DNA from: Pseudofrankia saprophytica
GTDB lineage: Bacteria > Actinomycetota > Actinomycetes > Frankiales > Frankiaceae
Reading direction: 5' to 3'
Assembly: GCF_000235425.2 (NCBI RefSeq)
Contig: NZ_KI912266.1
Span: forward strand, 994,405-1,058,404
Length of the DNA: 64,000 nucleotides
Shown: in pieces, positions 19,471 through 57,877 of the stretch
How the letters are laid out: each line of letters begins with the position of its first letter
Numbering within the stretch: position 1 is the stretch's first letter
Notes under the pieces: model-generated
Databases searched by the model: none
What the model was told of the DNA's origin: nothing
Seen by the model: only the letters and a program-made list of their open reading frames with translations
Made by a program: the position numbers and the translations under genes

Positions 19471-21462
19471 TCAGGGCAGGGCGTCGAAGTCGGTCCACCA
19501 CTCGTAGAGGCCGCGGCCGTCCTCGTCGAAGGTGATGAACGCGACCAGGTCGGCGTCGTAGGTCCAGTAGATGTAGAAGTCACCGTTCTCGTGGCCGCAG
19601 ATCAGCGCGCCCTGCTCGGCGGTCTCGCCGGTGTAGTTCCACCGGCCGACGTGGTCCTTGCCGTTCTTGCAGGAGCCGGAGTCCGTGACCTCGTCGTCGC
19701 GGGTCTTGGTGAACTGCGCCAGTGAATCCGCGTCGAAGAAGCTGAACGCGGCGACCGCGTGTTTCTCCCCCGTCGAGATGCAGGTGACGGCGGCCTGGAC
19801 GGTGAAGTTCTCCTGGCTGGCCGCCGGCTTGCAACCCGACAGCGAGCCGGAGTCCAGCTTGGCCACGAGCGCCTGCTCCGCCAGGCTGAGCGCCGCGGTC
19901 GGCGTCGACGGCGGGGCGGAGGGCGGAGCCTTGACCGGAGTTGTCGGCGCCGTCGTGGGCGGAGGACTCGCCGACGTGGTCGCGCCCGGCGACGCGCCGC
20001 TCACCACCGTTCCGGTGTCGTCCTTCGGCCTGGCCACGATCACCAGGACGACGATCAGAACCACCAGTACGGCACCGATGGCGACACCGCCGATGATGAG
20101 GTTGCGCCGGCTGTTGTCGCGCGCGGGCGGCGGCGGAGGCGTCGGAGTTGGAGGCGGAGCGCCCTGGTATCCGCCCGGGCCGGAAGCCGGCTGGCTCCCG
20201 TATCCAGGCCCCGCTGAATAGCCACCGAAGCCCGCCGGCGGAATCTGTCGGACGCCGCCGGGTGCCGGCCGGTTCGCGGCGTTGTGGGCTGGCGTTCCGT
20301 ATCCCACGCCCGGGAGATAGGGGGTGGTCGGGGCGAGGCCGGTCGGAACCGGCGGAAATGGGGAGGGCGGTACCGGGGAGGGCGACGGCATTGGGGGCAG
20401 CGGCGTGGAGCGCGGCGGAACGGAGGGCCGCAGCGCGGGAAGCTGCGGCATCGGAGGTGCCGGCACCGCTGGCGCTGGCGTCGCGGGTGCTGGCGTCGCG
20501 GGTGCTGGCGTCGCGGGTGCTGGTGTCGCGGGTGCTGGTGTCGCGGGCAGGCCAGCCGCTGGCATGGCCAGGCGGGAGGAACCCCTCGCGGCGGCGCGGA
20601 CGTCGTCGTCGAGGTCGACGGGGGTCTGGGCTCGGTCCATCCAGCCGGGCCCGAGAGTGGCCGCGGCGGCCTCGGCGAGGTCGAGCGCGAACGCCCGGGC
20701 GGACTGCTGGCGGTGCGCCGGGTCCTTGGCCAGGGCCGTCAGCAGTGCCTGGCTGACCTGGGCCGGCACGCCGGGCGGCGGTGGGGGCGGGGTGTGCAGG
20801 TGCGCATCGCGCAGCCTCAGGTAGCTGTCCGTGTCGCCACCGAACAGGGGCATGCCGGCGGCCATCTCGTAGGCGACGACCGCGAGCGCGTACACGTCGA
20901 CGGTGGGACGTAATGGCTGCCCCAGGAACTGCTCTGGAGCCATGTAACGCGGCGTCCCGACGATGGAGCTGGTGACGGACGCCGTGCCAGCGATGTCCTT
21001 CGCGATGCCGAAATCCGTAAGCTTCGCCCGGCCGTCCGCCGTGAACAGTACGTTCGCCGGCTTCACGTCGCGGTGCAGCAGCCCCCGCCGATGCGCCGTC
21101 TCCAATGCTCCCGCCACGGCGAGCACCACCGCGCAGGCCCATTCCGGCGCGGCCCGCGACTGCCTCAGCTTGGCCTTGAGGTCGCCGTCCGCCAGCAGCT
21201 CCATGACGATGAGGGCCAGTTCGCCAGCGGGTACGAAGTCGTACACCCGCACGATGTGGGGATGCTCGAGCCTGGTGAGAATGAGCGCCTCATCCTCGGG
21301 GTGCGTGCCCGATTCCGGAGCGCTCGGCAGCACCTTTATGGCCACGTCGCGGCGCAGCCGGTCCTTGGCCGCCAACACCGTGCCGGCCCCGCCGCGACCA
21401 ACCTGCGCGCCCAGCGCATAGCCCGGAAGGGCCCGCTCGACGAGCGTCCGATCCACGATCAC
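19471..21462 (-). CDS. Transmembrane serine/threonine protein kinase
   Basis: This is a PknB-like receptor kinase. The catalytic domain (about residues 10-270) has the glycine loop VGRGGAGTV, VAIKVL lysine near 39, HRDVKPANVL near 126, DFGIAKD and the APEQF motif. A long Pro/Ala linker follows with TPAPA pentapeptide repeats. A membrane helix lies near 453-476 (LIIGGVAIGAVLVVLIVVLV). The C-terminal extracellular domain contains paired Cys (SGCKPAAS, VTCISTG, GSCKNGK, LICGHENG), suggesting a disulfide-bonded sensor rather than PASTA repeats. I chose the GTG at 21462. The ligand is unknown. Confidence 0.93.
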   Translation of the reverse strand: MIVDRTLVERALPGYALGAQVGRGGAGTVLAAKDRLRRDVAIKVLPSAPESGTHPEDEALILTRLEHPHIVRVYDFVPAGELALIVMELLADGDLKAKLRQSRAAPEWACAVVLAVAGALETAHRRGLLHRDVKPANVLFTADGRAKLTDFGIAKDIAGTASVTSSIVGTPRYMAPEQFLGQPLRPTVDVYALAVVAYEMAAGMPLFGGDTDSYLRLRDAHLHTPPPPPPGVPAQVSQALLTALAKDPAHRQQSARAFALDLAEAAAATLGPGWMDRAQTPVDLDDDVRAAARGSSRLAMPAAGLPATPAPATPAPATPAPATPAPATPAPAVPAPPMPQLPALRPSVPPRSTPLPPMPSPSPVPPSPFPPVPTGLAPTTPYLPGVGYGTPAHNAANRPAPGGVRQIPPAGFGGYSAGPGYGSQPASGPGGYQGAPPPTPTPPPPPARDNSRRNLIIGGVAIGAVLVVLIVVLVIVARPKDDTGTVVSGASPGATTSASPPPTTAPTTPVKAPPSAPPSTPTAALSLAEQALVAKLDSGSLSGCKPAASQENFTVQAAVTCISTGEKHAVAAFSFFDADSLAQFTKTRDDEVTDSGSCKNGKDHVGRWNYTGETAEQGALICGHENGDFYIYWTYDADLVAFITFDEDGRGLYEWWTDFDALP
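20474..20548. repeat. 15-bp tandem repeat in kinase linker
   Basis: Five near-identical copies of gctggcgtcgcgggt (last two with one change) encode the TPAPA repeats of the kinase juxtamembrane linker. Fifteen bases keep the frame, so copy number can vary without breaking the gene. Confidence 0.85.
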
Positions 21463-26654: not shown

Positions 26655-26774
26655 CCCCAGCCAGCAGCCACCAGTTACCGGCTACCGCCCACCGGCCACC
26701 TGTCGCCGGCGGACAGCCCGCGCCGCGGCCGCCCCGCCCTCCGACCGCCTCCTAGGTCGCCTCTGACGGCCTCC

Positions 26775-26807
26775 GGCCACGCGAGGCTCCGCCATCGTCG
26801 CGTGGCC
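26775..26807. repeat. Hairpin with GGCTCCGCCATCG loop, single copy
   Basis: Perfect 10-bp arms GGCCACGCGA and TCGCGTGGCC enclose the 13-nt loop GGCTCCGCCATCG, seven bases from the end of the FtsX-like gene. The same loop with a compensated stem (GGCCGGGCGA / TCGCCCGGCC) occurs twice inside the ABC gene at 46170-46262. It may act as a bidirectional terminator for the converging transcripts here. Confidence 0.75.
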
Positions 26808-26813
26808 TTTGGC

Positions 26814-29282
26814 CTAGCCGGACCGCGAGTGGACCGAGGGCCGCAGCCAGGCATTGCGCGGAGCCGGGACGAGAGCGGCGAGCGCTCCGATGACCAGCGC
26901 CGCCGGCGGCAACATCAGCAGCAGCCCGCCCGGGAACGCGGCGTCGCCCCCGACACCGGTCGCGCTCGCGATCTCCCACCACACCAGGCGCCCGACCCCG
27001 AGGCCGAGGGGAATCCCGACGCCGACCGCGCCGAGCGCCGTCACGCAGGCCGCCGTCACCGCGGCCGCGGCCGTCTGCGCCGGCGTGCTCCCGAGCGTGC
27101 GCAGGACGCCGGCCTCGCCGGCGCGCCGGCGCCAGCTGGTCGTCACCGAATGGACCAGCGCGATGGCCGCGAGGCCGCCGAGCACCATCTGGAGCACCTC
27201 CGGCAGCCTGCCGATGCCGCCCAGGTTCGCGACCTCCGTCGGCGGCTGCCGCGGTGCCACCTCGTACTCGTCGCCGAGGTCGCCGACGAGCGACGCCACC
27301 GGCACGCCGTCGGCGGCGGTGACCAGGCCGTCCCACCAGGGTGCCGTCCGTTGGGTCCGTTCCAGCACGCCCGGGTCGAGCAGCAGGTTGTCACCGAGCC
27401 GTTCGCCGCCGACCGGCGGCCCGAGGCCGATGCCGACCACGGTGACCCGTGCCCCGTCGCCGTCGCCTGGGCTGGGCGCGAGGTTGAGGACGTCGCCGAC
27501 CTCGACGCCGAGGTCATGGGCGGCGTGCGTTCCGACCACCGCCTCGCCGGGGCCTCGGCCAGTTCGCCCGGAGAGCATCGTCCAGCCCTGCTGGCCGGTG
27601 GCCGAGTGGACGGCGTACGCGGTGACCTCCACGCAGCCGGGACCCGGCCTCGCCGCGGGCGCCGCCCGGCTCCCCTTGCTGGGGCCCTCATCGGCGGTAT
27701 CCGCCGGGTCGCAGCCGTCGCCCGCCAGCACCGTCGACCGGGCGACCAGGCTGACGGCGGCTATCCAGGGGTCCACCTTCAGCCGCGCGACGATGTCGGG
27801 CCGGGCATCCAGCAGGTCGAGGTCGGCGGTCCAGCCGTAACGGCTGGGATCGCGTATGAGCCGGTCGATGCCGTGCGCGACCGTCGCCGCCGCCACCAGC
27901 GCGGCCACCGAGATCATGGCGGTGATGACCGATGGGCGCCGGCCCGACGACGGCCGGTGTCCGGTGAGCGCGAACCGCGTGCCCACCCACAGCCAGGCTG
28001 GGCCCGCCCAGGCCGGGCCGGGGCTCAGCCAGCTGGCCCGCACCGGGCCGGCGGCGCGCGCGGCCCCAGTGGCGGCCCGGCCGCGGCCGGCGCGGGCCGC
28101 CGACCATCCCGAGAGGGCCAGGACGAGGCCGATGGCGGCCACCTCGGTGATCCCCGCGACCGCGAGGTTGGGCGTGTAGCCAGGATGGGGTTCCAGGTCG
28201 GCGAGCGGGCCGATCGGTTCCAGCCGGCCGGCGAGCAGGGGCCCCGTCGCCGCGACCAGCCCGGCGAGCGCCGCCGCCGGGACGGCCGCGAGCACCCGCG
28301 CCGCCGCCCTGCCGGCCGGCGTCACGCCGAGCACGGCCTCGATCCGCTGCTCGGTCAGCCGTGCGTAGTGATGGCGCCCGAACGCCACCGCGGCGGTGGC
28401 GAGCCCGGTCACCCCGACGACGACGGCGAACGCGACCAGGCCGGTCAGCAGCACCCGGGTCGTGGCCCCGACCCGGGCGTCCGAGTCGGTCGCCGGATGC
28501 TGCACCTCCAGGAGCGGGAACTCGGCCGCCTGGGGGTCCTGCTCGTCGCCGGCCGTCGCCGCGGCGCGGGCGAGCGCCGTGTCGGCACGGGCCACCGCGT
28601 CCGGCGCCGACACCAGCTTGATCATGACGGTGATGCCGACGGTGGCGATGTCGCCGGCGACGGCGGGCGAGAGCAGCAGCGGTGTCTGCTGGGCCGTCGC
28701 GCCGGCCATCCGGACAAGGCCGGTCACCCGCACCGTGAACCGTGCCCCGTGCGGCGTCCCGAAGCCGGTGTCGAAGTTGAAGTAGTCGTCCCTGGTCAGC
28801 GCCCGCAGGGTCAGGACGTCGTCGACCTTGACCCCGAGTGACCTGGCGGTCCGCTCGTCGAGGACCGCCTCCGCCGCGTTCGGGTCGTAGTTCCGGCCCT
28901 TCACGACGACCGGCGTGTACACGCCGACGTCCGAGCCGACCGGGTGGCCGGCGAGCATCCCGAGGTACACGACGCCCGGCCGGTTCTCCACCCGGGCCGC
29001 GGACGCCGCGGTGACCCAGACGGACTGCAGGCCGGGTACGACCGCCGCGGCCCTGGCCGCGAGCCCCGGCCCGGCGGGCACGGTGATCTGCAGATCCGGC
29101 ACGGCGGTCGCGCGTTCGAGCCGAGCCGGCGCGGTCCCGGTGCGCCGGGTCAGCGCGGCCGCGCCGCCGACGACCGCGCCGACCAGCCCGACGAGCAGCC
29201 CGAGGGCGACCAGGCTGGGCCAGCGGCGCCGCAGCTGCCCGAGGGCGATCATGCGGACGGCGCCGAACACCGGGGCTGCCAT
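26814..29282 (-). CDS. FtsX-like ABC transporter permease
   Basis: This 822-residue MacB/FtsX-type permease has an N-terminal helix (WPSLVALGLLVGLVGAVVGG), a long extracytoplasmic domain, and three-helix FtsX cores near residues 280-400 and 690-800 (LVHSVTTSWRRRAGEAGVLR then TLGSTPAQTAAA). Such permeases do not import solutes but mechanotransmit or extrude lipids and peptides. It starts three bases after the kinase stop in an ATPase-kinase-permease operon. That layout resembles Bce-type peptide-sensing and resistance modules, although the kinase class differs. Confidence 0.9.
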   Translation of the reverse strand: MAAPVFGAVRMIALGQLRRRWPSLVALGLLVGLVGAVVGGAAALTRRTGTAPARLERATAVPDLQITVPAGPGLAARAAAVVPGLQSVWVTAASAARVENRPGVVYLGMLAGHPVGSDVGVYTPVVVKGRNYDPNAAEAVLDERTARSLGVKVDDVLTLRALTRDDYFNFDTGFGTPHGARFTVRVTGLVRMAGATAQQTPLLLSPAVAGDIATVGITVMIKLVSAPDAVARADTALARAAATAGDEQDPQAAEFPLLEVQHPATDSDARVGATTRVLLTGLVAFAVVVGVTGLATAAVAFGRHHYARLTEQRIEAVLGVTPAGRAAARVLAAVPAAALAGLVAATGPLLAGRLEPIGPLADLEPHPGYTPNLAVAGITEVAAIGLVLALSGWSAARAGRGRAATGAARAAGPVRASWLSPGPAWAGPAWLWVGTRFALTGHRPSSGRRPSVITAMISVAALVAAATVAHGIDRLIRDPSRYGWTADLDLLDARPDIVARLKVDPWIAAVSLVARSTVLAGDGCDPADTADEGPSKGSRAAPAARPGPGCVEVTAYAVHSATGQQGWTMLSGRTGRGPGEAVVGTHAAHDLGVEVGDVLNLAPSPGDGDGARVTVVGIGLGPPVGGERLGDNLLLDPGVLERTQRTAPWWDGLVTAADGVPVASLVGDLGDEYEVAPRQPPTEVANLGGIGRLPEVLQMVLGGLAAIALVHSVTTSWRRRAGEAGVLRTLGSTPAQTAAAAVTAACVTALGAVGVGIPLGLGVGRLVWWEIASATGVGGDAAFPGGLLLMLPPAALVIGALAALVPAPRNAWLRPSVHSRSG

Positions 29283-37808: not shown

Positions 37809-38750
37809 ATGACCTCACCCACGGAACTGGATCTGCTGCGCGAGCTGGAGCCGGTCGCCGCGGCGAACATCGACCGGCACCTGGGTCTCGCCGCCGAGTG
37901 GATGCCGCACGAGTACGTGCCGTGGGGTCTGGGGCGTGACTTCGACACCCTGCCGTGGGAGCCGGAGCAGTCGGCGCTGTCCGACGTCGCCCAGATCGCC
38001 TTCGAGGTCAACCTGCTCACCGAGGACAACCTGCCGAGCTACCACCGGGAGATCGCCTCGGCGTACGGCCGCGACGGCGCCTGGGGCACCTGGGTCGGCC
38101 GGTGGACCGCCGAGGAGGGCCGGCACGCGATCGCGATGCGGGACTACCTGATGGTCACCCGCGGCGTCGACCCGGTGGCGCTGGAACGCGGCCGGATGCA
38201 CCAGATGGAGCTCGGCTACGACAGCGGCAACAAGACCCCGCTGCGGGTCATGGCCTACGTGACCATCCAGGAGCTGGCCACCCGGATCAGTCACCGCAAC
38301 ACCGGCCGGTTCACCCAGGAGCCGGTGGCCGAGAAGCTGCTGGCCCGGATCGCCGCCGACGAGAACCTCCACATGATCTTCTATCGGAACCTCGTCACCG
38401 CCGCGCTGGAGCTCGCCCCGGACCTGACCGTGTTGGCCATCCGCGACGAGGTCCTCAACTTCGACATGCCCGGCACCGGCATCCTCGACTTCAAGAGCAA
38501 GGCCCGCCAGATCGCCGACGCCGGCATCTACAACCTGCGCGTCCACCACGACGAGGTGGTGACGCCAGTGCTGCGGCAGTGGCAGTTCTTCGCGCTGGAG
38601 GGCCTGGGCGGCGAGGCCGAGCAGGCCAGGGCCGAGGTCGCGACCTTCCTCGAGGGACTCGACGCCTTCGCCACCCTCCAGGAGGAGAAGCGCGCCGCCC
38701 GGGCCGCCCGAGCCGGCCGGGCCACCGGCGAGCTCGCCGCCCAGGCCTGA
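37809..38750 (+). CDS. Acyl-[acyl-carrier-protein] desaturase
   Basis: This soluble diiron desaturase of the plant stearoyl-ACP / mycobacterial DesA2 family introduces a double bond into acyl-ACP. The diiron ligands are recognisable as EVNLLTEDNLPSYHREI, EEGRHAIAMRDYL (ExxH) and ADENLHMIFYRNL (second ExxH). The length of 313 residues is normal for bacterial members. An electron donor is needed but not encoded nearby. A 21-bp palindrome upstream is a likely operator. Confidence 0.93.
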   Translation: MTSPTELDLLRELEPVAAANIDRHLGLAAEWMPHEYVPWGLGRDFDTLPWEPEQSALSDVAQIAFEVNLLTEDNLPSYHREIASAYGRDGAWGTWVGRWTAEEGRHAIAMRDYLMVTRGVDPVALERGRMHQMELGYDSGNKTPLRVMAYVTIQELATRISHRNTGRFTQEPVAEKLLARIAADENLHMIFYRNLVTAALELAPDLTVLAIRDEVLNFDMPGTGILDFKSKARQIADAGIYNLRVHHDEVVTPVLRQWQFFALEGLGGEAEQARAEVATFLEGLDAFATLQEEKRAARAARAGRATGELAAQA

Positions 38751-45450: not shown

Positions 45451-46737
45451 ATGACCCAGTCAACGCATCAACGACGACGCGGGGAGAGCCGGCCCGTCTC
45501 GCCTCCCGCCTCGCCGCCCGCAGGGCCTCCGGCTCAGGTCGCCGCGCGGCCCGGCCCACCGTTCGGCGAGGCGCCGCCTGTCGAGGACGCGCATCCCGCC
45601 GCGATCGACGTGCGCGGCCTGTCGAAGCGGTACGGCCGGCGGACCGTCGTCCACGACCTCGACCTGCGCATCCCGGTCGGCGCGGTGGCCGGCTTCATCG
45701 GCCCGAACGGGGCCGGGAAGACGACCACCCTGCGCATGCTGCTCGGCCTGGTCCGCCCGACCACGGGGCGGGGCACCGTGCTCGGCCGCCCGCTGACGGA
45801 GCCGGCCGGCTACCTGCCGCGGGTCGGCGCGCTGATCGAGAGCCCGGCGCTTTACCCGCGGCTGTCGGCCCGCCGCAACCTCGAGGCCCTGGCGATCCTC
45901 GCCGGCCAGTACCACCCCGCCTGGATCGAGGAGGTGCTCGACGAGGTGGGACTCGCCGAGCGGGCCGACGACGAGGTGCGGTCGTACTCCCTCGGCATGA
46001 AGCAGCGGCTCGCGATCGCCGCCGCGCTGCTCGGCGACCCGGACCTGCTGGTGCTCGACGAGCCGACGAACGGCCTGGACCCGATGGGCATCCGGCTGAT
46101 GCGCGAGCTGATCCGTGACCTGGCGGTCCGCGACAACCGGCCGCGAACCATATCGGCTGACGGGTCCGCGGCCGGGCGAGGCTCCGCCATTGTCGCCCGG
46201 CCGCGAACCATATCGGCTGACGGGTCCGCGGCCGGGCGAGGCTCCGCCATTGTCGCCCGGCCGCGAACGGTCATCGTCTCGTCCCACCTGCTCGCCGAGG
46301 TCGAGCAGATCTGCGACTGGATCATCGTCGTCGACCGGGGCGAGCTGGCTTACCAGGGCCCGCCGGACGGGCTGCTGTCCGCCGGCGCGGCACGGGTGAC
46401 GCTGCGTCCCGAGCACCTGGACGACCTCGGCATGCTGGCCGACCTCGCGGCGGGGCTTGGTCTCACGGTCGAGCGTGCCGGCGACCTGGTGACGGCGGTG
46501 CTGCCCGCCGAAGGGGCACCGGGCCGATCGGCACGGCCGCCGGCGCCGGGCACGCCGGACAGCGAGCTCGACGATCCCCGGCAGGCGATGCACGCGCTGC
46601 TCGGCGACCTGAACAGGGCCGCGCACGCGCATGGGATCACGCTGGTCGAGATCGCCCCGAGCCGGGTGACCCTGGAGGAGCGCTACACCGGCCTGGTCGC
46701 CCAGGGTGCCGGCCGGCTGATGGGAGACGCGGCATGA
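45451..46737 (+). CDS. ABC-2 type exporter ATPase with in-frame 2 x 20-residue repeat insertion
   Basis: This is a BcrA/DrrA-like ATPase with Walker A FIGPNGAGKTTTLRMLLGLV, signature RSYSLGMKQRLAIAAALLG, Walker B LLVLDEPTNGLDPMG and H-loop VIVSSHLLAEVEQIC. Between RDLAVRDN and VIVSSH lies an extra segment of two identical 20-residue units (PRTISADGSAAGRGSAIVAR), encoded by the 60-bp repeat at 46141-46260. Related ATPases have only a few residues here, and the insertion immediately precedes the H-loop strand. All catalytic motifs remain intact. The last four bases overlap the permease start (ATGA). Confidence 0.92.
   Translation: MTQSTHQRRRGESRPVSPPASPPAGPPAQVAARPGPPFGEAPPVEDAHPAAIDVRGLSKRYGRRTVVHDLDLRIPVGAVAGFIGPNGAGKTTTLRMLLGLVRPTTGRGTVLGRPLTEPAGYLPRVGALIESPALYPRLSARRNLEALAILAGQYHPAWIEEVLDEVGLAERADDEVRSYSLGMKQRLAIAAALLGDPDLLVLDEPTNGLDPMGIRLMRELIRDLAVRDNRPRTISADGSAAGRGSAIVARPRTISADGSAAGRGSAIVARPRTVIVSSHLLAEVEQICDWIIVVDRGELAYQGPPDGLLSAGAARVTLRPEHLDDLGMLADLAAGLGLTVERAGDLVTAVLPAEGAPGRSARPPAPGTPDSELDDPRQAMHALLGDLNRAAHAHGITLVEIAPSRVTLEERYTGLVAQGAGRLMGDAA
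46141..46260. repeat. Two perfect tandem copies of a 60-bp palindromic unit inside an ABC gene
   Basis: Positions 46141-46200 and 46201-46260 are identical. A third partial copy (CCGCGAAC) follows at 46261. Each unit contains the hairpin GGCCGGGCGA-(GGCTCCGCCATTG)-TCGCCCGGCC. The reverse strand reads RGRATMAEPRPAADPSADMV, similar to one frame of the 60-bp unit at 48901. The length of 60 keeps the host reading frame. Confidence 0.95.
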
Positions 46738-48570: not shown

Positions 48571-49812
48571 ATGGACGCCACCCGGCAGGGCCGGGACAAG
48601 CAGGACCGCCAGGTGTCCCAGGGATATGGAGAAACGGCGACGGGGCCGCGCGACGGAGAGATCCGGCGGTTCGGGCCGAGCACCCGCTGGGTGCACCGCA
48701 CGACCGCGTTCCTGTTCGGCGTGTGCATCGCGACGGCCGCCGTCCTCTACCTGCCACAGCTTTCGATCCTGGTCGGCCGGCGAGCACTGGTGATGACCAT
48801 CCATCTCTACAGCGGCCTGGCACTCCCCATCCCGCCCCTGCTCGGCTGGCTGCTCAGCCATCGCGGCGAAGCCTCGCACGGGCGGAGGCAACTCAGCGGA
48901 CACAGCCAAAGCCCGCGCGACGATGGCGAAGCCACGCGCGGGCGGAGGCAACTCAGCCGACACAGCCAAAGCCCGCGCGACGATGGCGAAGCCACGCGCG
49001 GGCGGAGGCAACTCAGCCGACACAGCCAAAGCCCGCGCGACGATGGCGAAGCCACGCGCGGGCGGAGGCAACTCAGCCGACACAGCCAAAGCCCGCGCGA
49101 CGATGGCGAAGCCACGCGCGGGCGGAGGCAACTCAGCCGACACAGCCAAAGCCCGCGCGACGATGGCGAAGCCACGCGCGGGCGGAGGCAACTCAGCCGA
49201 CACAGCCAAAGCCCGCGCGACGATGGCGAAGCCTCGCGCGGGCGGAGGCAGCTCAGCGGATACAGCGGGGGCTTTCGTCGTGACGCTGCCGAGCTCAACC
49301 GTTTCGGCTCCGCCGACGGCGTGTGGCTGCGCGACCACCTGCCGGCCGGCCCCGTCCGCCGGTTTCGCCGCCAGTCGTGGGACTCGGCCGCCGGCGGGCC
49401 GACCATCGGCGCCGTCCCGGCGCCTGGTGCCGCGGACTCGGGCGAGGTGCGCCTGGGCGGCAAGTTCAACGCGGGCCAGAAGCTCTATGCCGCCGGCGTC
49501 GCCGGCTCGATCGTCGTCTTCCTCGGCACCGGCCTGCTGATGTGGTTCGGCGCCGACCTTCACGTGCCGGACCGCTACCGCACCGGCGCGACGTTCGTCC
49601 ACGACGTATTCGCCTACGGAATCTTCTTCGCGATCTGCGGCCACCTCTGGATGGCCTCGCGCGACCCGTTCTCCCGAGCCGGGATGCGCACCGGCTACGT
49701 CCCCACCTGGTGGGCAAGCGCCGAGCATCCCCACTGGGACACGGGAACGGACCGGGAGACGGAAACGGACGCCGCCGCCGCGGGCCGGCCGACCGACCAG
49801 CCGTCCGGGTAA
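48571..49812 (+). CDS. Cytochrome b membrane subunit with 60-bp repeat expansion
   Basis: This is a formate-dehydrogenase-gamma / cytochrome b561-like protein. Helix 1 contains RWVHRTTAFLFGVCIATAAV with a likely heme His, helix 2 TIHLYSGLALPIPPLLGWLL, helix 3 KFNAGQKLYAAGVAGSIVVF and helix 4 FVHDVFAYGIFFAICGHLWM. The cytoplasmic loop between helices 2 and 3 is expanded by about 130 residues, mostly six copies of EATRGRRQLSRHSQSPRDDG or close variants, before family sequence resumes at AELNRFGSADGVWLRDH. The loop is highly charged and likely disordered. The gene follows the molybdopterin oxidoreductase by three bases, its probable electron acceptor or donor. Confidence 0.88.
   Translation: MDATRQGRDKQDRQVSQGYGETATGPRDGEIRRFGPSTRWVHRTTAFLFGVCIATAAVLYLPQLSILVGRRALVMTIHLYSGLALPIPPLLGWLLSHRGEASHGRRQLSGHSQSPRDDGEATRGRRQLSRHSQSPRDDGEATRGRRQLSRHSQSPRDDGEATRGRRQLSRHSQSPRDDGEATRGRRQLSRHSQSPRDDGEATRGRRQLSRHSQSPRDDGEASRGRRQLSGYSGGFRRDAAELNRFGSADGVWLRDHLPAGPVRRFRRQSWDSAAGGPTIGAVPAPGAADSGEVRLGGKFNAGQKLYAAGVAGSIVVFLGTGLLMWFGADLHVPDRYRTGATFVHDVFAYGIFFAICGHLWMASRDPFSRAGMRTGYVPTWWASAEHPHWDTGTDRETETDAAAAGRPTDQPSG
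48865..49265. repeat. About 6.7 tandem copies of a 60-bp palindromic unit inside a cytochrome b gene
   Basis: Positions 48901-49200 are five identical 60-base units. A diverged unit precedes them, and one variant plus a partial unit follow. Each contains the hairpin CCCGCGCG-(ACGATGGCGAAGCCA)-CGCGCGGG, whose loop is the complement-type of the one at 46180 and 26785. At least five of the six frames lack stops across the array, so insertion in any of them would leave a gene open. Confidence 0.97.
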
Positions 49813-57358: not shown

Positions 57359-57877
57359 GGTAAGGATCCCGGCGGCGAAGAAGATGATGCTGAGGACGAT
57401 GTTGATGGCCAGCATCACGCCCGAGACGATGCACAGGGTCTTGGCGGTACGCGACGCGCTGAGCGCCCCCTGGATGTCTCCGCGCTGCGTCAGGTTGTTG
57501 ACCCGGGACCCGAAGACAATGGCCACGATCCCGATGATGAAGCCGACCAGGAACCAGCTGCAGGTCAGGAACGAGACGACCGTGATCACGATCGACTGCC
57601 ACAGGTAGTTCGGGACCGGCGCGCCGGGCGGCGGCGGACCGAACCCGCCGGGCGCGGGGGGGTAGCCGACGTCGTAGCCCGGCTGGCCATAACCCTGCTG
57701 ACCGTAGGCGGGCTGGCCATAACCCTGCTGGCCATAGTCCGGCTGGCCGTAGCCCTGCTGACCGTAGCCCTGCTGGCCGTAGTCCGGTGGCGGTGGCGGC
57801 GTCCCGTAGCCGTAGCCGTAGCCCGGCTGGTTATAGGGCTCCTGACCAGGGGCGCCGTACGGAGGTGGTGTCGTCAC
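57353..57877 (-). CDS. CD225/dispanin family protein A (Tyr/Gln/Gly-rich head)
   Basis: The C-terminal half has the CD225/dispanin two-helix domain: [34 protein letters not shown], then the conserved loop [16 protein letters not shown] and second helix [14 protein letters not shown]. The N-terminal 85 residues are a low-complexity head of YGQQGYGQP repeats, disordered and cytoplasmic. Bacterial dispanins are small membrane proteins of unknown role. The GTG start is preceded by CCGAAAGGCGCGG, a 21-bp leader identical to that of the next paralogue. It is the last-transcribed of three tandem paralogues. Confidence 0.88.

Follow-up and report, generated by a model that had tools for sequence, protein, structure and literature searches.

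Three hairpin sites in one window

The window, a 64,000-nucleotide stretch of the Pseudofrankia saprophytica genome (G000:C1:994405-1058404; genome of 9.98 Mb in two contigs), contains short hairpins at 26.8, 46.2, and 48.9 kb. The first stands alone, and its final base is the first base of the stop codon of a convergent gene (26814-29270, minus strand). The other two sites are arrays inside genes. The features, with scores from the covariance model described below, are as follows.

26768-26814, plus strand: solo hairpin, with inner arms at 26775-26784 and 26798-26807 and outer GGCC arms at its ends; model score 78.6 bits; also folded
45451-46737, plus strand: host gene for an ABC transporter ATP-binding protein with a 40-residue in-frame insert
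46138-46268, plus strand: two-unit array of 60-bp units, head to tail, in frame within the ABC-transporter ATPase gene
46163-46209, plus strand: hairpin of unit 1 of the 46-kb array; model match 46158-46215, 65.8 bits; also folded
46223-46269, plus strand: hairpin of unit 2 of the 46-kb array; model match 46218-46275, 55.8 bits
48571-49812, plus strand: host gene of the 48.9-kb array, encoding a membrane protein weakly similar to a formate dehydrogenase gamma subunit, below the curated cutoff
48865-49266, minus strand: head-to-tail array of 6.7 copies of a 60-bp unit, in frame in its host gene

Inspection of the sequence showed that the stems and loops reported in a preliminary description are present at all three places. 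The hairpins have a layout of ∼46 nt, GGCC-TCC-stem-loop-stem-TTT-GGCC, and occur solo or as ∼60-bp head-to-tail arrays. In the fold common to the copies, an outer pair of GGCC arms is followed by an internal loop (TCC/TTT), a 10-bp inner stem, and the loop itself with GGC-GCC; the middle of the inner stem differs from copy to copy, and the loop is conserved. This imperfect hairpin and a short, poorly conserved spacer make up a unit of ∼60 bp in total. Tandem-repeat analysis returned a 60-bp period, with 2.2 copies at 46.2 kb, where the 12-base repeat CCGGCCGCGAAC flanks the units, and 6.7 copies at 48.9 kb, where six clear hairpins are accompanied by a weak seventh match (48845-48895).

The loop motif GGCTNCGCCATNGTCG has 12 matches in the window (≤2 mismatches) versus 2.1 expected, a number reached in none of 100 shuffles. 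Across the whole genome it has 25 exact matches versus none for a reversed control pattern, and at least two of the 25 (L002 and L025) lack a stem and look like chance occurrences. Twelve copies chosen from the loop-motif matches align without gaps across 58 columns. Folded as single-stranded DNA, five of eight copies were better than all 200 shuffles, and the other three were equalled by 2, 8, and 7 of the 200; the minimum-energy fold of the copy in uvrC is a different one from the family hairpin. Between genera, the loops vary and the arms retain GGCCTCCGG...CCTTTGGCC. Overall, these results confirm that the hairpins at 26.8, 46.2, and 48.9 kb are members of one family.

The shared peptides RATMAEPR and RATMAKPR, offered earlier as a further match between the 46- and 48.9-kb units, were rejected. 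They lie outside the frames of the host genes, which read RTISADGSAAGRGSAIVARP (46 kb) and SPRDDGEATRGRRQLSRHSQ (48.9 kb).

The window also holds other short tandem repeats at 57673-57791 and 20456-20547, whose periods (15, 30, and 45) are all divisible by 3, and a 70-bit match to the Rfam family ASdes (RF01781), labeled TB sRNA, at 38115-38182 on the minus strand.

Dispersal among Frankiaceae genomes

We built a first covariance model from 12 copies and a broader one from 117 copies. The 12-copy model gave 81 matches in this genome at E ≤ 1, of which 64 fall below 1e-3, with E-values to 1e-20; the concern that a genome scan might return no copies beyond chance is thereby removed. The 117-copy model was applied at E ≤ 1e-4 to 35 genomes of the order, and its counts are lower bounds because only 150 first-look candidates were scored per genome. 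It found at least 77 copies in P. saprophytica, at least 49 in P. asymbiotica, at least 35 in F. nepalensis, and at least 114 in BMG5.36; the other same-genus genomes have at least 7, 3, 1, and 0. Five genomes of another genus hold at least 11-91 copies each, one more genome has 16, and G016 has three, all at one site. The remaining 20 of the 35 genomes, including six of genus g2, gave no copy at this threshold.

A class-wide sample of 296 genomes, with 18 candidates scored per genome and stricter filters, contained nine with matches at E ≤ 1e-5, all within Frankiaceae, and none outside the family; 27 listed genomes count as Frankiaceae here, and the other 269 are taken as outside because the list runs by kinship. 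At a laxer limit, the first model gave one weak match (E about 0.003) in each of two genomes outside the family, G030 and G040. Among the matches listed in a search of the open-licence literature on Frankia repeats or palindromes and on actinobacterial RAYT, this family is not described.

Copies inside genes

We examined 47 of the 49 sites from the 12-copy scan; the partial matches C2:1140276 and C1:4695457 were omitted, and weaker matches were not taken. Gene calls come from a codon-usage script, with 18 open reading frames of the window as its training set, and not from curated annotation. Eight of the 47 sites lie within genes, seven of them flagged by these calls and the eighth being the 48.9-kb array, which the gene caller had split. 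We compared seven of the eight (all but L129) with relatives, and for each of the seven, one or more relatives are free of the hairpin.

The uvrC gene contains a 60-bp in-frame insert that none of the six same-genus relatives compared has, and the same six lack the 57-bp insert in the gene for hydroxysqualene dehydroxylase HpnE. The 60-bp insert in a fadB-like gene is shared with F. nepalensis and BMG5.36 and is absent from four others, including P. asymbiotica. F. nepalensis is less similar than P. asymbiotica at the 46-kb ABC protein, yet it holds the fadB-like copy that P. asymbiotica lacks, a distribution that needs loss, exchange, or repeated insertion. In BMG5.36, this orthologous hairpin (L197) has a further 78-bp in-frame insert, with 83 residues between anchors versus 57.

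Relatives also differ in the number of units at the same site. The ABC ATPase gene has two units here and in Pseudofrankia sp. BMG5.36, the source of the closest named homologue of its protein (91% identical over the best segment), and zero in P. asymbiotica. For the gene at 48.9 kb, 6.7 units here compare with one in P. asymbiotica and zero in three relatives. P. saprophytica has three units in a carotenoid-enzyme-like gene, where BMG5.36 (judged from the translation) and P. asymbiotica (where the model matches too) have a single unit each and no hairpin is visible in the other four relatives. A putative CaiB-like gene has one unit here, two in BMG5.36, and zero in P. asymbiotica.

Each compared insert keeps the reading frame, and the measured lengths (57, 60, 60, 60, 63, and 120 bp) are all multiples of 3, with the caveat that a frame running through a site was the ground for calling it in-gene. 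Hairpin-free sites in relatives, such as that in uvrC, demonstrate insertion. The analogy with Rickettsia palindromic elements drawn in the preliminary description was well founded in two respects, namely in-frame inserts in unrelated genes and hairpin-free sites in relatives. We conclude that a family of probably mobile palindromic DNA is dispersed in some Frankiaceae genomes.

Copies between genes

Eight of the 47 sites lie between divergent genes. Our position test took in 39 intergenic sites and counted 37, the other two having no called gene on one side. The clustering at gene ends that had been raised as a possibility is real: 18 of the 37 copies lie ≤15 nt from a stop codon versus 9.9 expected (sd 1.9). 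Near start codons, 4 copies were found and 4.0 expected. At the 26.8-kb site, L051, L053, and L142, hairpin-less relatives have the stop codon at the same place (judged by eye), indicating that the copy did not create the stop.

We sought 16 intergenic sites in three relatives. Hairpin-free sites were found for L146 in both aligning relatives, for L051 in P. asymbiotica, and for L018 and L026 in F. nepalensis; shared copies were found at L001, L013, L026, and L018, and at L051 in BMG5.36. P. asymbiotica retains a stretch like the right end of the hairpin at L003, which points to a possible, partial deletion there. L023 has a different insert in each species. At several sites, including 26.8 kb, one flank is too diverged for the hairpin state of relatives to be judged.

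Three sister species carry three different inserts beside the same CTAG stop (L023, L271, and L272), a possible insertion hot spot.

Covariation of the stems

In the 12-copy alignment, which was not fitted to a model and whose structure came from folding single copies, 14 cells are changed on both sides of a pair versus 3.6 in shuffles. An alignment of 107 distinct rows has 125 such cells versus 35 in shuffles, with none of 500 shuffles reaching 125, and 92.4% of its stem cells are paired versus 82.8% in shuffles; this alignment, like alignments A4-A6, was fitted to a model having the fold, which favors the fold. One stem position is C-G in 41 copies, G-C in 41, A-T in 7, and T-A in 4. The covariation pointed out in the preliminary description is therefore far above shuffles.

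It had been attributed to selection on folded DNA or RNA. If RNA were what folds, G·T cells should outnumber A·C cells; no such excess is seen, with 33 G·T cells versus 52 A·C cells (30 versus 38 once rows 90% alike are removed). The orientation of copies relative to transcription in tandem gaps is also even, with 10 in the same direction and 11 opposite. The constraint thus looks like DNA complementarity, and the RNA part of the earlier attribution is not supported. Rfam gave no match at gathering scores at the three hairpin places of the window.

Selection on the folded copy was likewise borne out in part, by the covariation across copies but not by orthologous stems, which mostly differ on one side only. 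Nine sets of orthologous copies from sister species were used, giving 17 non-independent pairwise comparisons; the BMG5.36 fadB-like copy, with its extra insert in the hairpin, was omitted. Among 238 base-pair comparisons, one-sided differences number 36 and two-sided differences 6, versus 2.4 two-sided ones expected if the sides were independent. Four of these 6 are Watson-Crick in both copies. The prevalence of one-sided differences suggests that resident copies are not tightly held to pairing. Pairing seems to matter when a copy spreads and less once it is resident, and the simplest reading of the one-sided differences is that well-paired copies are those that spread.

Flanking repeats, arrays, and variants

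Direct repeats around the insertions measure 12 nt at the ABC site, 8 nt at uvrC, about 6-7 nt at L051, and 0-3 nt at the HpnE, fadB-like, and CaiB-like sites; at L146 their placement is not single or clear. With a length that varies from 0 to 12 nt among six sites, a fixed target duplication was rejected. The ABC and uvrC sites had prompted the idea that the target always supplies the right stem arm; the other sites did not bear this out, and it was dropped.

Intergenic arrays have mixed periods, which were entered by hand from the match spacing. None of the arrays printed contains an inverted (head-to-head) doublet, and the strong matches of each array are on one strand; weak opposite-strand matches at the same hairpins come from the palindrome itself.

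A longer variant of ∼105 bp occurs at L015:1373, L023:1479, L034:1435, L124:1501, and L142:1501. Here a second palindromic module, GGGGTCCCC...GCCGATCTTCCGGGG with minor variation, takes the place of the hairpin's right half and is followed by the TTTGG end.

Search for a mobilizing enzyme and terminal tags

The preliminary description suggested looking for a RAYT gene in this genome, and its presence is not supported. Profile PF01797 (Y1_Tnp; RAYT and IS200-type) has no match in seven of the eight genomes of the genus (G000-G006), namely P. saprophytica and six of its seven relatives; those with 35-114 copies are among the seven. The eighth, G007, has one match but no hairpin copy at E ≤ 1e-4. 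In all, 14 of the 41 genomes searched contain the profile. Copy counts exist for 12 of these 14: four are hairpin-bearing (G016 and three of genus g3), and eight are not. The five hairpin-bearing genomes of genus g3 divide into three with one match and two with none, and G009, G018, and G011 have hairpins without PF01797. A RAYT was rejected as mobilizer on both its absence here and the lack of correlation between its presence and copy number across relatives. Reverse transcriptase (PF00078) was also rejected, as its 6 matches here, 6 in hairpin-free G008, and 8 in G002 (7 hairpins) show no correlation. Our search for a recurrent protein beside the copies found nothing beyond groups at 3-4 loci, and in some of these one locus is counted twice or one gene recurs across sister species.

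Tags were counted in 70 of the 117 copies, after removal of those >85% alike. GTAG occurs in 1 of the 70 on each side and CGTC in the terminal stretch of 5 of the 70 on each side (raw counts), with no regular or positioned CGTC; CTGA lies just left of the hairpin in 22 of the 70. An enzyme moving the hairpins, if there is one, is probably not a RAYT.

Proposed explanation and alternatives

We think it likely that these hairpins of some Frankiaceae are very small mobile elements of palindromic DNA, spreading as DNA in ∼60-bp units that form head-to-tail arrays. A copy would be inserted as about one ∼60-bp unit, and short direct repeats flank some of the insertions. Arrays would subsequently lengthen head to tail, with slippage or unequal exchange between short direct repeats as the simplest route, and copies may survive beside stop codons or, in frame, where the protein tolerates them. 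The mobile form could be a folded single DNA strand, in which case pairing would be selected when the copy is made. We infer the copying mechanism, and read movement from the hairpin-free sites in relatives. A more specific proposal, which we advance tentatively, is a self-spreading ∼46-nt hairpin without a dedicated transposase. Replication-linked events or an unrecognized enzyme might copy such a hairpin in the form of folded single-stranded DNA, renewing its two arms together, and it would repeatedly add segments of 19-21 residues to host proteins.

Spread without any dedicated enzyme appears rather doubtful as an alternative. In this scheme, template switching at the replication fork copies one ∼60-nt hairpin unit into short-match sites, and the arms are corrected against each other. 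Direct repeats that differ in length between sites and the failure to find an associated gene agree with it, as does unit 2 of the ABC array in BMG5.36, where the left arm has changed at two places to match the right arm perfectly. This is, however, a single case of arm correction, read from compared sequences, and the hairpins occur in some Frankiaceae only, although replication is universal.

It is unlikely that the copies are MITE-like, non-autonomous remnants of an insertion sequence with its transposase lost or unrecognized. Their arms are indeed inverted repeats (GGCC...GGCC), but these make one hairpin, not the ends of a longer element, and the target duplication has no fixed length. 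The uvrC and HpnE insertions are clean, as this reading would have it, but their presence in this genome alone suggests fairly recent activity.

Quite unlikely, in our judgment, is that the hairpins are RNA-level 3′-end elements (terminators or mRNA stabilizers) kept by selection on host genes. The strong stems and the 18 of 37 intergenic copies near stop codons (9.9 expected) would suit such a role. It is at odds with the eight sites in genes and the eight between divergent genes, the even orientation (10 versus 11), and the lack of a G·U preference, and in the copies printed the only T run is the TTT of the internal loop. There is also no Rfam match at gathering scores at the three window places, and one-sided pair differences are frequent between same-site copies.

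Chance likeness of palindromes in a very GC-rich genome, for which the weak outside matches in G030 and G040 (E about 0.003) might be cited, is a negligible prospect, already refuted by the genome scan, given E-values to 1e-20 here, a class sample whose matches at E ≤ 1e-5 all fall within the family, and 25 loop motifs versus 0 in the control.

Comparison with known systems

Palindromic elements that insert in frame are best known from Rickettsia. The mobile DNA elements we propose resemble these Rickettsia palindromic elements (RPE), by description, in their in-frame insertion in unrelated genes and in the empty sites of relatives. RPE are described as short palindromes inserting in frame in unrelated protein genes (PMC10969869), and RPE-4 and RPE-6 are filed among the CGTC repeats, a class presented as lacking a dedicated transposase (PMC3733652). 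The family differs from RPE in having a ∼46-nt hairpin and a ∼60-bp unit instead of ∼150 bp, no positioned CGTC tag, head-to-tail arrays, and a GC-rich actinobacterial host.

With REP and REPIN sequences, the family shares dispersed short palindromes that lie mostly between genes, and known REP sequences are reported to be recognized as folded single-stranded DNA (PMC8266576). In contrast to REP/REPIN systems with a RAYT (TnpA-REP), it has no PF01797 in seven of eight same-genus genomes and no GTAG tag. Its arrays are head to tail, whereas head-to-tail dimers are given as absent, under-represented, or negligible in the GTAG and CGTC families where that survey treats them (PMC3733652). The same source mentions untagged families, whose palindromic repeats end in neither GTAG nor CGTC and which are named for M. 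tuberculosis, D. radiodurans, and others; the likeness here, drawn from a mention, is the lack of such ends and the occurrence of one of these families in an actinobacterium.

Bacterial MITEs are described as small, with inverted repeats, and sometimes translated within a host gene (PMC10969869). The hairpins differ from them in lacking a fixed target duplication, and no partner transposon was found beside the copies, where neighbors recur at 3-4 loci at most. They differ from a structured RNA family in having no Rfam match at the window hairpins (gathering scores) and no wobble-tolerant pairing (G·T 33 versus A·C 52).

At one and the same site, relatives can be hairpin-free, one-copy, or multicopy, and the inserts illustrate the gain of new segments by host proteins, UvrC included. 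Since the highest-copy genomes of the genus lack the enzyme tied to GTAG REPs, the spread of untagged palindromes becomes testable in them. The family acts like RPE in its in-frame habit, which is hereby extended to a GC-rich actinobacterium, but fails the tested features of RAYT-driven REPs and of CGTC-tagged repeats.
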